64,000 nucleotides of DNA from Alphaproteobacteria bacterium. GTDB lineage: Bacteria; Pseudomonadota; Alphaproteobacteria; Micropepsales; Micropepsaceae. A program made the position numbers and the translations under genes. Location: positions 1-64,000 of the forward strand of contig JAHFQC010000020.1 in NCBI GenBank assembly GCA_023259375.1, read 5' to 3'. Positions 24,476 to 62,077 of the stretch are shown one piece after another. The notes under the pieces are model-generated. The model searched no databases, was not told where the DNA came from, and was given only the letters and a program-made list of their open reading frames with translations. Positions within the stretch are counted from its first letter, which is position 1. Each line of letters begins with the position of its first letter.

Positions 24476-24899
24476 GATCACCCCCTCCAACACCCAGTGA
24501 AGCCAGACTATCGCGAACATAAAGTGATGCGGCCATTATTGGATGCAAATGCATCTCACCCGCCACTAACTTGAATCGAAGCATCAGAGCACTACCTCTT
24601 GGTTCAGGTTGTGCCTCTTCCCCCATGAGGCCGCGCCCCTCAGGACTGAAATTAAAACCGAGAAACAAATGTACCAAGGAGGGTGATGGAAAAGACAATA
24701 GCCATAGGCGCCCTCGCGTTAGTTTCCAGTTTAGAACGATTCGATTTCGATTCTGGACGCCCGGCCTGCGGCGTGTCGGCTCGCCTTGCACGGGCATGTT
24801 GACGCCTTCAGGGAACTAAAGTAGAACGATTCTCCGTGTTTCGGATTTGTTCGCCGTCGCCGTTTGGGTGCCGGGGCGATCCAACGGAGGCAATTCGGA
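24476..24899. other. Intergenic region upstream of lexA
   Basis: About 420 bases without a supported gene; short frames at 24468-24819 on both strands have no ribosome site or recognisable sequence. The right end carries the lexA control region, with the LexA site at 24838-24852. The left part shares the raised A+T content of the four-span membrane protein gene. Confidence 0.5.
24838..24852 (+). promoter_or_regulatory. LexA/SOS box upstream of lexA
   Basis: GTTTCGGATTTGTTC reads GTTT-N7-GTTC, one mismatch from the alphaproteobacterial consensus GTTC-N7-GTTC, and lies about 48 bases before the lexA ATG. Autoregulation of lexA is general, so the position gives weight to an otherwise imperfect match. 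Confidence 0.6.
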
Positions 24900-25631
24900 A
24901 TGCTCACCAAGAAACAGTACGAGCTCTTGATGTTCATCCACGAACGGGTGCACGAAACCGGCATCCCGCCGTCGTTTGATGAAATGAAAGATGCGCTCGA
25001 CCTGAAATCGAAGTCGGGCATCCATCGCCTCATCACCGCTCTTGAAGAGCGCGGCTTCTTGCGCCGCATGGAAAAGCGCGCCCGCGCGCTCGAGATCATC
25101 AAGCTGCCGGAAAACATGGCCGAGACGCTGCGCCCCGCGCAAACGCGCAGCCAGGCCCAGCGCATGAGCCCCAGCCATCGCACGCGCAGCCCAGCTACTG
25201 ATGCACGTGGCGCCGGATCGCCGCGCCGTCCCATGGGCGAAGCCGAAGGCGCAATCAATGTGCCTCTGGTCGGCCGCATCGCCGCCGGTACGCCGATCGA
25301 AGCGCTGCAAAACAAAATCGCCGACGTTCCTGTGCCGAGCGGCATGGTCGCTCGCGGCGATCATTACGCGCTGGAAGTCAACGGCGATTCCATGATCAAC
25401 GCCGGCATTCTCGACGGCGATACGGTGATCATTCAGGAAGCCGACACCGCCAACACCGGCGAGATCGTGGTGGCCCTGGTCGACAACAACGAAGCCACGC
25501 TGAAGCGCTTGCGCCGTCGCGGCGATTCCATCGCTCTCGAAGCTGCCAACCCCGCCTACGAAACCCGTCTCTATGGCGCCGATCGCGTCAAGGTGCAGGG
25601 CAAGCTGGTGGGATTGATCCGGCGTTACTGA
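24900..25631 (+). CDS. lexA: SOS-response repressor and self-cleaving protease
   Basis: A 243-residue LexA. The winged helix N-terminus is [40 protein letters not shown]. Residues 78-115 form an unusually long Arg/Ser/Pro/His-rich linker, typical of alphaproteobacterial LexA. Self-cleavage occurs between Ala129 and Gly130 (GRIAAGTP), with Ser164 ([10 protein letters not shown]) and Lys202 (ATLKRL) as the catalytic pair. GGAGG lies 9 bases before the ATG at 24900. The gene converges on comEC and overlaps it by 7 bases at the 3' ends. It would control the site at 62004-62018 as well as its own promoter. Confidence 0.96.
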
Positions 25632-57392: not shown

Positions 57393-60300
57393 CTACACTG
57401 ACTCCACCTCCAGCACGCCCGGGATGACGCGCAGGGTGTCCTTCAGGGCGGAGGTGACCTGGTGGCGCTTGGGCAAGGCGATTTCGACTTCTTCGCCCTG
57501 GCCTCCCGGTACCACCAATGTAACGATGCCCTTGCCGGGATTTTTCAGCGCTCCGGCAATCCCGGGAATGGCAGCCTCGTCGTTGACATGCAAGCGCAAG
57601 CCCTCGCCGGCATGCATGGCTTCGGTTTCCAGGTCCTTGACCCAGGTAGCCCGCAGCTTCAGCTCATCGCCTTCCCAGGTCGCCACCAGCTTGATCAGCA
57701 CCGACTTGCCGGCATCGAGCAGATGGCGCGTGGCGGCGAGCACTTCGGAGAAGAACATCACTTCGTACATGCCGGTGGGATCGGAGAACGAGCAGAACGC
57801 ATACATCTGGTCGTTCTTGCCGCGCCGCTCCATTTTGCGGATCACCGTGCCGGCTAGCACTGGCGTGGAAGCACTGCGCCGGTCTTCGAGCACTTCGGCG
57901 TAGGTCACCGCCTGCAGCCGCTTCAGCGCGACGCGATACTGGTCGAGCGGATGACCCGACAGATAGAAGCCCATGGCGCCGAATTCCTCGCCAAGGCGTT
58001 CGTGCGGCGGCCAGTCATTCACCGCCGGCAGACGCAAATCGGCCTTGGCGGGGCCGCCGCCGAACAGGCTCACCTGCCCGCTTTCGCGCTCGCTGGTGGC
58101 CGCTTGAGCCGCCGCGAGAATGACATCGGCCCCTTCCACCACCTGGCGGCGGTTCTTGTTGAGGCTGTCGAACGCCCCGGCGCGCGCCAGGTTTTCCACC
58201 ACCCGCTTGTTGATCTGCTTGGGATCGACGCGGTTGGCGAAATCGGCAAGCGACTTGAACGGACCGCCCTGTTTGCGCACCTCGACCAGATGGTCCATCG
58301 CCTGACGGCCGACTCCCTTGATCGCCGCCAGCGCGTAATAGATTTCCTTCTTCTCGGCATCGACCGAGAACACCGCCGTCGAACGGTTGACGTCGGGCTG
58401 CAGCACAGAAATGCCGAGACGTTGGGCCTCCTGGCGGAAGACATTCAAACGATCGGTCTGACCCATATCGAGGGTCATCGACGCGGCGAGGAATTCGACC
58501 GGGTAATGCGCCTTCAGATACGCCGTCTGGTAGGCGACGTGGGCGTAGGCCGCGGCATGGCCCTTGTTGAAGCCGTAACCGGCGAACTTGGCGGCCTGGT
58601 CGAAGATCTGCTCGGCGATCTCGGGCTTGACGCCGCGCTCGGAGGCGCCTTTCAGGAAGCGTTCGCGCTCCTTGACCATTTCCGCCACGATCTTCTTGCC
58701 CATGGCGCGGCGCAGATTATCGGCCTGGCCCATGGTGTAGCCGGCCAGTTCCTGGGCGATGTGCATGACGTCTTCCTGATACGTCATGACGCCGTAAGTA
58801 TCTTTCAGGATCGGCTCGAGCTTGGGATGGAGGTACTCCGGCTCCTCCTTGCCGTTCTTGACGGCAATGTATTTCGGGATCGAGTCCATCGGACCCGGGC
58901 GGTAAAGCGCCACAAGCGCGACGAGGTCGTTGATGCGGTCGGGTTTCATCTTGCGCATCAGGTCGCGCATGCCCGTGGATTCCAACTGGAACACGCCGAC
59001 GCTGTCGCCCTTGGCCAGCATCTCGAAGGTCGGCGCATCGGTGAAATCGAGACTGGCGGCATCGATCTCAATGCCGCGCTGGGCGATCAAGTCCTGCGCC
59101 TTGGCGATCACCGTCAGGGTCTTGAGGCCGAGGAAGTCGAACTTCACCAGGCCGGATTTTTCCGAGCCCTTGTAGTCGAACTGCGCCACCGGCACGTCGG
59201 AGCGCGGATCGAGGTAAAGCGGCAAAAGCTCGTCGAGCGGACGATCGCCGATGATGACGCCGGCCGGATGGGTCGAAACGTTGCGGTAGAGCCCTTCCAC
59301 CTTCTTGGCAATCGCGAACAGGCGCTGAGCGATCGGCTCTTGCTCGGCAATCTGCTGCAGCCGAGGCTCGCCCTCAATCGCTTCGTCGATGGTGATGTGC
59401 TTGCCGGGCTGACCCGGGATCAGCTTGGCGATGCGGTCGACCAGACCGAGCGGCATCTGCAGCACGCGACCGACGTCGCGCACCGCGGCGCGCGCCTGCA
59501 ACGAACCCAGCGCCAGGATGTGACCGACCTTGTCGTGGCCATACTTGTCGCGCACGTAATGCACGACCTCTTCGCGCCGCTCCTGACAGAAGTCGATGTC
59601 AAAGTCAGGCATCGAAATACGTTCCGGGTTGAGGAAGCGTTCGAAGAAGAGACCGAACCGCAACGGGTCGAGGTTGGTGATGTCGAGCGACCACGCCACC
59701 AGCGAGGCGGCGCCGGAACCACGAACGCCGACCGGGATGTTCTGGGCGCGGGTCCACTTCATGAAGTCGGACACGATCAGGAAGTAGCCCGGGAACTGCA
59801 TCTTGATGATGACGTCGAGCTCGTAATCCAGGCGCTCGTCATAGGCCTTGCGGTCGGCATAAAGCCCGTTTTTGGCCAGGCGCCGTTCGAGGCCGGATTT
59901 CGCCTGCGCCTTCAATTCCTCTTCCGCCGAGAGCCCGGACACCGGCTCGAACAGCGGCAACAGCGGGTGCCGTTTGATCGGCTTGGCGGCGCAGCGCTGG
60001 GCGATTTCGATGGTGTTGGCGATCGCTTCCGGTAAGTCGGCGAACTTGGCCGCCATCTCACCGGCAGACTTGAAGCGGTGTTCGGGCGTGACCCGGCGGC
60101 GGTCTTCCACTGACACATAGGTGCCGTCGCCGATGCACAAGAGCGCGTCGTGCGCCTCGTACATGTCGGCTTTGCCGAAGTGACAATCGTTGGTGGCGAC
60201 CAGCGGCAGCTTCTTGTCATAGGCCAGATCGATCAGCCCGCCTTCCGCCGCACGCTCCTCGGGCAGGTCGTGGCGCTGCAATTCCACGTACAGCCGGTTC

Positions 60301-60815
60301 GGGAAGATGGTGGACAGCGTGTCGAGCAGCTCCGCCGCCGCATCCATCTGACCGGTCTCGACCAGCTTGTTGAGCGGACCGCCGGGACCGCCGGTGATCG
60401 CGATGATGCCTTCGTTGTACGCGGCCAGGGTCTTGGCCGTGACGTGCGGCCAGTCGCCGGCGGGGACATCGAGATAACAGCTCGACAGCAGCTTGCAGAG
60501 ACTTTGATAGCCAGCCGGGCTTTGGACATAGATCGGCAGATAGGGCGGCTTGGGGCGGGAGCCGAGGGTCGAACCGCCCACCAGATCCACCGCCAGCATC
60601 ACCCCGACGATCGGCTGCACCCCGGCCTTGGCCACGGTGTCGGTCCAGTCGAACACGCCGAACACCTGATTGACGTCGGTGACGGCCACCGCCGGCATGG
60701 CGTTCTCGACGCATAGCTTGGCCAGCTCCTTGGGGCGGATCGCGCCCTCGATCAGCGAGTAGGCGCTCTTCACCCGGAGATGGACAAACCCGGCCGGTTT
60801 CTTCCCGTCAGCCAA
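57393..60815 (-). CDS. dnaE: DNA polymerase III alpha subunit
   Basis: A 1140-residue replicative polymerase of the DnaE1 type. The PHP domain starts FVHLRVKSAYSLIEGAIRPK; the palm carries MPDFDIDFCQERREEVVHYV with the catalytic Asp pair, and KFDFLGLKTL and GVFQLESTGMRDLMRKMKPD are diagnostic; an OB domain and C-terminus follow. The start is TTG at 60815, with AAGGAG seven bases upstream, and it lies 8 bases inside the preceding DUF3788-like gene. No ATG occurs near it, so the rare TTG start looks real. Confidence 0.96.
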   Translation of the reverse strand: MADGKKPAGFVHLRVKSAYSLIEGAIRPKELAKLCVENAMPAVAVTDVNQVFGVFDWTDTVAKAGVQPIVGVMLAVDLVGGSTLGSRPKPPYLPIYVQSPAGYQSLCKLLSSCYLDVPAGDWPHVTAKTLAAYNEGIIAITGGPGGPLNKLVETGQMDAAAELLDTLSTIFPNRLYVELQRHDLPEERAAEGGLIDLAYDKKLPLVATNDCHFGKADMYEAHDALLCIGDGTYVSVEDRRRVTPEHRFKSAGEMAAKFADLPEAIANTIEIAQRCAAKPIKRHPLLPLFEPVSGLSAEEELKAQAKSGLERRLAKNGLYADRKAYDERLDYELDVIIKMQFPGYFLIVSDFMKWTRAQNIPVGVRGSGAASLVAWSLDITNLDPLRFGLFFERFLNPERISMPDFDIDFCQERREEVVHYVRDKYGHDKVGHILALGSLQARAAVRDVGRVLQMPLGLVDRIAKLIPGQPGKHITIDEAIEGEPRLQQIAEQEPIAQRLFAIAKKVEGLYRNVSTHPAGVIIGDRPLDELLPLYLDPRSDVPVAQFDYKGSEKSGLVKFDFLGLKTLTVIAKAQDLIAQRGIEIDAASLDFTDAPTFEMLAKGDSVGVFQLESTGMRDLMRKMKPDRINDLVALVALYRPGPMDSIPKYIAVKNGKEEPEYLHPKLEPILKDTYGVMTYQEDVMHIAQELAGYTMGQADNLRRAMGKKIVAEMVKERERFLKGASERGVKPEIAEQIFDQAAKFAGYGFNKGHAAAYAHVAYQTAYLKAHYPVEFLAASMTLDMGQTDRLNVFRQEAQRLGISVLQPDVNRSTAVFSVDAEKKEIYYALAAIKGVGRQAMDHLVEVRKQGGPFKSLADFANRVDPKQINKRVVENLARAGAFDSLNKNRRQVVEGADVILAAAQAATSERESGQVSLFGGGPAKADLRLPAVNDWPPHERLGEEFGAMGFYLSGHPLDQYRVALKRLQAVTYAEVLEDRRSASTPVLAGTVIRKMERRGKNDQMYAFCSFSDPTGMYEVMFFSEVLAATRHLLDAGKSVLIKLVATWEGDELKLRATWVKDLETEAMHAGEGLRLHVNDEAAIPGIAGALKNPGKGIVTLVVPGGQGEEVEIALPKRHQVTSALKDTLRVIPGVLEVESV

Positions 60816-61329
60816 AACTCACTCCTTCGGCGCACTTTATTTTATGGTCGCGCTTCTTATCCGAAAACCGGGAGCCACTTTTCAGGAAGCGCTCCAGCTT
60901 ATATTCCACCAACTTCGCGATCCCCGGCACGTCGGCGGCGGTCGCGGGGGCGATCTGGATGTAATGTCCCTCGGGATAGATCTTGGCCTCCCCCGCCAGC
61001 TTCTTGATCCGGGCCGGCAGCTTGGCCGCCGTGGCCAGACCGAAAGCCCGCTCACCGAGCATGACGCGAACCTCAACCGCCCCCGGCTGGGGCATGAGGT
61101 AGACCAGATTGCGGTCCTTCTTGCGCAGGACGGCATAAACCCCGAACGGCAACTTGGCCGGGCGCCAGTCGAGGTCACAGGGCACGATGGCCTGGACCGC
61201 CGCAACCACCGCGTCCCAGACCGAAGCGGCCGGACCGATCTCGGCGGCCAGAACCGCCGGGTCGGGCGCCTTGGCAACGGCGGGCTTCTTCTTCGGGGCG
61301 GACTTCTTGACCTTCTTGACGGCAGCCAT
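60808..61329 (-). CDS. DUF3788-like protein with basic N-terminal tail
   Basis: A 173-residue protein. A Lys/Pro/Ala-rich tail (VKKVKKSAPKKKPAVAK) precedes a DUF3788-like domain: VWDAVVAAVQAIVPCDLDWR, VLRKKDRNLVYLMPQPG, EVRVMLGERAFGLA. It is a paralogue of the gene just upstream, whose stop directly touches its ATG at 61329 (TGAATG). Its 3' end overlaps dnaE by 8 bases, so all three genes are probably co-transcribed. Molecular role unknown; the basic tail might bind nucleic acid. Confidence 0.75.
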   Translation of the reverse strand: MAAVKKVKKSAPKKKPAVAKAPDPAVLAAEIGPAASVWDAVVAAVQAIVPCDLDWRPAKLPFGVYAVLRKKDRNLVYLMPQPGAVEVRVMLGERAFGLATAAKLPARIKKLAGEAKIYPEGHYIQIAPATAADVPGIAKLVEYKLERFLKSGSRFSDKKRDHKIKCAEGVSFG

Positions 61330-61755
61330 TCAGTCCTCCGCCTCGACGACGCACTGGGCCAGGGTGAGGACTTCGGCGACGTCGGCCTCGGTCTTGGCCA
61401 CGAAGCGGATGCCCCGCCCTTCGGCGGTCGGCTTGGTGTCGGCCAGCATCTGCTTGATCGCCGGACGGAGGTCAGAGCGCATGGCGAGCTGGAAGGCGTA
61501 GCCGTTCAGCACCACTCCGACCAGAAGCCGGCCGGCCATCGGCATCAGGAAGATGATCGTCTTATCGCGGCGGCGGACCAGACACATCCGGCCGAACGCC
61601 AGCTCCGACGGACGCCACTCCTGGACCAAGGGGCCGAACAGCTCCTCGAGTCCGCTCATGATCTGCGGCCACGCCGAGGTGCTGTTGCCGAGCGCGGCAT
61701 GCAATTCGGACGTGGTGGGAGGGACGACATCCTTCCTCTCTGCCCCACCCGTCAT
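61330..61755 (-). CDS. DUF3788-like protein
   Basis: A 141-residue single-domain protein. AWPQIMSGLEELFGPLVQEW, VRRRDKTIIFLMPMAGRLLV and GVVLNGYAF fit the W..L...L...GPL..EW pattern of DUF3788. It is followed without a gap by a diverged paralogue, so a local duplication is likely. It starts at ATG 61755, about 90 bases after the stop of the tiny SOS-box-linked gene at 61845-61949; no terminator is visible between them. Confidence 0.75.
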   Translation of the reverse strand: MTGGAERKDVVPPTTSELHAALGNSTSAWPQIMSGLEELFGPLVQEWRPSELAFGRMCLVRRRDKTIIFLMPMAGRLLVGVVLNGYAFQLAMRSDLRPAIKQMLADTKPTAEGRGIRFVAKTEADVAEVLTLAQCVVEAED

Positions 61756-61844: not shown

Positions 61845-61949
61845 TCAGCTGATCGTCAGAAGCGTCTGCGCGGCCCCAGCGAGGAAAAAACTGGAGGCAA
61901 AAAACACAATCAAACCAATGCCTGCAACGGCGTCCTTCAACCAAGCCAT
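61845..61949 (-). CDS. 34-residue single-span membrane protein under a LexA site
   Basis: A short gene: M-AWLKDAVAGIGLIVFFASS continuing FFLAGAAQTLLTIS. GGAG lies six bases before the ATG at 61949; an ATG four codons upstream (61961) has a poorer site. Residues 8-30 form one hydrophobic helix with small residues and paired phenylalanines; the head is short and amphipathic. About 55 bases upstream lies an exact SOS box within a TTGACA promoter. Tiny SOS-induced inner-membrane proteins that block division are known (SidA of Caulobacter, 29 residues); similarity here is in logic and size, not shown in sequence. Other possibilities are a leader peptide or a chance frame. Confidence 0.5.
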   Translation of the reverse strand: MAWLKDAVAGIGLIVFFASSFFLAGAAQTLLTIS

Positions 61950-61995
61950 CAGCGTCTCCATCGGCTATCCACGGGGCGTCCACAGCCTTATTCAC

Positions 61996-62024
61996 ACCCT
62001 AGTGTTCGCCGTATGTTCTGTCAA
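61996..62024 (-). promoter_or_regulatory. Predicted promoter with LexA site in its spacer
   Basis: On the minus strand TTGACA (62024-62019) is perfect; 17 bases later TAGGGT (62001-61996) is a weak -10. The spacer is filled by the SOS box at 62004-62018. The start site would lie near 61989, about 40 bases before the ATG at 61949. Possible downstream genes on the same transcript are the two DUF3788-like genes and dnaE. Confidence 0.5.
62004..62018 (-). promoter_or_regulatory. LexA/SOS box (exact GTTC-N7-GTTC)
   Basis: GTTCGCCGTATGTTC on the printed strand is an exact match to the alphaproteobacterial LexA site. An 8-base fixed motif should occur about twice by chance on both strands of 64 kb, so the match alone is weak; its place between -35 and -10 in front of a small membrane gene makes it convincing. 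An overlapping palindrome, GTTCT-GTCA-AGAAC (62015-62028), shares its right half. Confidence 0.65.
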
Positions 62025-62077
62025 GAACAAAACGGATACACCTAACTGTCCGAGTTTCTCTAGTGGAGTGGCTGCCA

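Follow-up and report, generated by a model that had tools for sequence, protein, structure and literature searches.

The window, a 64,000-nucleotide stretch of the genome of an alphaproteobacterium of the family Micropepsaceae, carries a small SidA-type gene at 61845-61949 on the minus strand. The gene comprises 34 codons plus stop, and its product, MAWLKDAVAGIGLIVFFASSFFLAGAAQTLLTIS, is a small membrane protein with one predicted transmembrane (TM) helix, in which a W-x-K-D motif is followed by a hydrophobic stretch without charges. A Shine-Dalgarno sequence, GGAG (61956-61959, minus strand), lies 6 nt 5' of the ATG, and GGAG or GGGAG also precedes the matching ATG in most relatives. An alternative in-frame ATG is present upstream at 61961, but it is a less likely start, as the start codon conserved among relatives is the one that precedes W-x-K-D. 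Coordinates and translation bear out the description in the earlier note of a 34-codon frame with a GGAG site that encodes one membrane helix. Pfam and NCBIfam scans of the window peptide and related peptides matched no family, and neither a phage search with the window peptide nor a plasmid search with SidA yielded a match.

The promoter of the 34-codon gene reads TTGACA-GAACATACGGCGAACAC-TAGGGT, with the -35 element at 62019-62024 and a weak -10 element at 61996-62001 (both minus strand). Its 17-nt spacer is filled by an exact LexA box, GAACATACGGCGAAC (62004-62018, minus strand; GTTC-N7-GTTC on the plus strand), which abuts the -35 element and lies 54 nt from the ATG, so the exact box that the earlier note placed about 55 bases upstream, within the 17-base spacer between TTGACA and the -10, is indeed there. 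Relatives have stronger -10 elements at the equivalent position, such as TAATCT in G007. A second box, degenerate and in the opposite orientation (GTATCCGTTTTGTTC, 62025-62039, minus strand), flanks the -35 element on its other side. This box has decayed in the window, with two half-site mismatches, compared to 0-1 mismatch in most relatives. In most relatives (promoters of L002-L030; 62004-62039 in the window), the -35 element is bracketed by opposed LexA boxes in the arrangement G[A/T]TC-N7-GTTC-TTGACA-GAAC-N7-GAAC, a near-palindromic double operator that is unusual.

The window also encodes lexA at about 24900-25631 (plus strand), with LexA_DNA_bind and Peptidase_S24 domains, preceded by a LexA box, GAACTAAAGTAGAAC, at 24813-24827 (plus strand). 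The presence of this gene and of a site of the same type had been noted earlier and was confirmed, but the site, then called near-consensus, is an exact GTTC-N7-GTTC. Two further exact LexA boxes were observed in the genome of the window (G000), one (L158 1167-1181; G000:C48:20666) 57 nt 5' of an ImuA-like frame, identified by eye and without a Pfam match, upstream of that genome's second DnaE, and the other (L162 1209-1223) approximately 54 nt 5' of a glyoxalase/VOC-family gene. Across the 64-kb window, four exact GTTC-N7-GTTC boxes were observed compared to 2.1 expected by chance, and 16 of 100 shuffles reached four. Therefore, a single box is not significant alone, and we set aside the argument from the scarcity of such boxes in the window.

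Despite this chance-level box, the 34-residue membrane-protein gene is real, because both its frame and its promoter box are conserved. The peptide was found in 33 of 36 further genomes from the same genus, the three genomes without a match being 58-74% complete, and its length varied between 31 and 35 amino acids across 30 genus loci. An exact GAAC-N7-GAAC box was found 26-55 nt 5' of the start codon at all 30 same-genus loci examined. Identity at codon positions 1, 2, and 3 was 0.69, 0.77, and 0.45, respectively, and pN was lower than pS in 433 of 435 pairs, with pN exceeding pS in the other two frames. The amino acid sequence of the small frame is under purifying selection. The earlier note had proposed comparing the frame, the synonymous-site pattern, and the upstream box with those of relatives, and all three proved to be conserved. 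Separately, a second, weak match to the peptide frame was seen in G034 (G034:C12:59033-59128, in L009), roughly 1.4 kb upstream of the main copy and possibly a decayed duplicate; this match was dropped, as it has no preceding box and no clear start. A match to G054, from another family (E = 2e-4 in the search of relatives), was treated as noise, given that it was not retrieved with the broader class profile.

At 30 of 30 same-genus loci, the first conserved gene downstream of the peptide frame is dnaE, encoding the replicative DNA polymerase III alpha subunit (57393-60815, minus strand, in the window). Between the small gene and dnaE, the window has a DUF3788 gene (61330-61755, minus strand), an insertion specific to its sublineage, which abuts a second DUF3788 gene (60808-61329, minus strand). 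With these two genes (60808-61755), the window differs from three close relatives that have one DUF3788 gene before dnaE and from the remaining loci, which have none. Both DUF3788 genes would share the SOS promoter of the SidA-type gene. No terminator-like site was found on the coding strand between the small gene and dnaE; a single transcript from one to the other is therefore plausible, and the small gene is probably co-transcribed with dnaE.

A similar arrangement occurs in Caulobacter, whose genomes we located by flagellin FljK (up to 98% identity). In Caulobacter (G546), the LexA box GAACATCTTGTGAAC is followed by a 29-amino-acid TM frame and then by dnaE, and the frame is flanked on the far side by an inosine-uridine (IU) nucleoside hydrolase gene. 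According to previous studies, sidA is CCNA_02004 (PMC10769358), CCNA_02005 encodes the IU nucleoside hydrolase (PMC3667746), Caulobacter dnaE is CC1926 (PMC1839093), and SidA is a 29-residue protein that acts on FtsW (PMC4211646). Given that this published gene order fits, the 29-amino-acid frame before Caulobacter dnaE is sidA, an identification made via gene order rather than by sequence comparison with the published SidA. The slot between the LexA box and dnaE is, then, common to the window gene and Caulobacter sidA. Our literature search, which had the original 2011 SidA paper and Erill 2004 outside its reach, found no statement on sidA-dnaE adjacency or on a wider distribution of SidA.

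Outside the genus, 12 of 80 dnaE upstream regions had an exact box, a Shine-Dalgarno sequence, and a short TM frame arranged in the expected geometry, compared to 0.0 for shuffled sequences and 0 for the reverse complement, and the pattern was absent in this geometry from 67 of the 80. The sidA-type module is widespread, yet not universal in the class. Among 80 further loci, the pattern was detected in Parvibaculum, Rhodobiaceae, Tepidicaulis, Maricaulis, Sneathiellales, and Phenylobacterium, and every locus with an exact box on the dnaE strand, at most 700 nt upstream of that gene, also encoded such a short TM peptide. Additionally, a profile built from 22 peptides and run over 385 whole genomes (cut-off E ≤ 0.001) retrieved 22 matches, all of which immediately precede dnaE and share its strand. 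Seven of these matches came from outside the profile, and all seven had an exact LexA box, including that of G395, which belongs to a further family. In most peptides, an uncharged helix follows the shared motif [W/F]-x-[K/Q/R]-[D/E]-x-x-A. These results suggest that an SOS checkpoint known from one laboratory genus is widespread in alphaproteobacteria.

We compared the peptide profiles of the genus, of intermediate families, and of Caulobacteraceae with hhalign. The intermediate set was picked by box, TM helix, and position, and its helix character is thus partly selected, an effect that shuffles, reversals, and held-out matches lessen but do not remove; with this set, the comparison to the own-genus profile gave 94% and a score of 30.9 (reached by 0 of 150 column shuffles; reversed 8.6), and the comparison to Caulobacteraceae gave 91% and a score of 25.1 (0 of 150 shuffles; reversed 6.2). 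Compared directly, own-genus peptides and Caulobacteraceae SidA scored 12.6, a value reached by 7 of 150 shuffles, and a separate profile comparison of the two gave 4%; the direct profile match between the window family and Caulobacteraceae SidA was not significant. A further comparison, between profiles A3 and A2, was discarded, as A3 included SidA rows. Homology to SidA would be transitive, running through the intermediates without a direct match and backed by position and promoter layout.

This lack of a significant direct comparison would fit a functional analogue only, namely a LexA-controlled small membrane protein that evolved independently of SidA. We consider such independent origin improbable, given that the slot before dnaE and the box-in-promoter layout both match sidA, and that intermediates in other families have significant profile links on both sides. 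For the same reasons of slot and layout, a distant homologue or orthologue is better supported than a mere analogue; of the two options raised by the earlier note, the dnaE slot, the box within the promoter, and the intermediates favor the distant homologue. The SidA-type gene of the window is probably a further member of the SidA family, the more surprising part being the linkage to dnaE across families.

Taken together, the window gene likely represents a divergent SidA orthologue that would be repressed by LexA, induced by DNA damage, and inhibit septation via the late divisome. We propose LexA repression and damage induction because of the promoter box and the LexA control of Caulobacter sidA. 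We infer LexA binding, induction, membrane topology, the targeting of FtsW, an arrest of division, and transcription through to dnaE according to the following model. LexA on the intra-promoter box would silence the 34-amino-acid gene; upon DNA damage, a RecA filament would trigger LexA self-cleavage, the promoter would be freed, and the 34-residue protein would be made. The protein would insert into the inner membrane with its N-terminus inside via its single helix, with W-x-K-D at the cytoplasmic end and no charged residue past the D. By analogy with SidA, it would then suppress the activity of the late divisome (FtsW/FtsI/FtsN) for as long as repair takes; septation is probably inhibited in this manner through FtsW, FtsI, or FtsN, and ftsW is present in the genome of the window. 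The numbering published for the SidA-resistance residues of FtsW disagreed with the start assigned here to Caulobacter FtsW. The transcript probably continues through the two DUF3788 genes into dnaE, and damage would raise the replicative polymerase simultaneously. On a broader scale, we see an even chance that a LexA-controlled operon of a division brake and the replicative polymerase (sidA-dnaE) is a checkpoint module inherited from an ancestor by much of the Alphaproteobacteria, in which one promoter would halt septation and raise DNA polymerase III after damage, the brake having been overlooked in a gene below annotation size.

Rather than acting on the divisome, an SOS-induced peptide of this kind could be membrane-active, depolarizing the membrane or favoring persistence as in the TisB/DinQ type, with which the window peptide shares a similar size class, a single helix, and LexA control; DinQ is an SOS-regulated single-TM peptide (PMC3567139). 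However, the window gene occupies a fixed locus common to sidA. While tisB and dinQ have a long structured leader with antisense RNA, the 5' leader here is short, approximately 40-50 nt from the predicted promoter. Similarly, the TisB helix is amphipathic, whereas that of the window peptide, having no charges past W-x-K-D, is not. We therefore regard membrane activity of this type as unlikely.

Given that the frame invariably precedes dnaE directly and is read in the same direction, it might also be a translated leader (upstream ORF) that regulates dnaE, the peptide itself being unimportant. This is very unlikely in light of the purifying selection on the amino acid sequence, the approximately 1 kb of DUF3788 genes that separates the still conserved frame from dnaE in the window genome, and the ability of Caulobacter SidA to act in trans from plasmids (PMC4211646). 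Finally, a spurious ORF beside a chance LexA-like site, which 2.1 expected boxes per 64 kb might suggest, has a negligible probability, being refuted by the conserved frame and box, purifying selection, and held-out profile matches. A divergent SidA orthologue thus remains our preferred reading.

To our knowledge, the SOS division inhibitors of different lineages seem to be unrelated, and we know of none for most alphaproteobacteria. The fixed address of a LexA box, a helix of about 30 amino acids, and dnaE allows such an inhibitor to be found where sequence search fails. With it, the range of SidA grows from Caulobacter to several more families and an apparently uncultured lineage, and the joint SOS induction of replicative polymerase and division brake becomes testable. 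This fixed sidA-dnaE address and its spread across families are what this analysis adds, leaving aside priority with respect to the original SidA paper.

Among known systems, TisB and DinQ of E. coli are likewise SOS-controlled single-TM peptides, but they are antisense-RNA-controlled, membrane-damaging, and gammaproteobacterial. YneA of Bacillus, SosA of Staphylococcus, DivS, and ChiZ are also SOS-induced membrane division inhibitors, and YneA has been reported to act on FtsW as well (PMC13396833); however, these proteins are from Gram-positive bacteria, have other sizes and domain layouts, and are encoded at unrelated loci. DidA, a damage-induced division inhibitor of Caulobacter that acts on FtsN, resembles the window peptide as a small single-TM protein, but has 71 amino acids and is controlled by DriD rather than LexA (PMC4211646). 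The SOS-induced SidA of Caulobacter crescentus (CCNA_02004), which acts on FtsW/FtsN, differs in having 29 residues instead of 34, in a sequence match via intermediates only, and in the absence of DUF3788 genes inserted before dnaE. Nonetheless, SidA and the window gene share a LexA box in the promoter and a tiny single-helix protein with [K/R][D/E] shortly after the start and an uncharged helix, with dnaE downstream.
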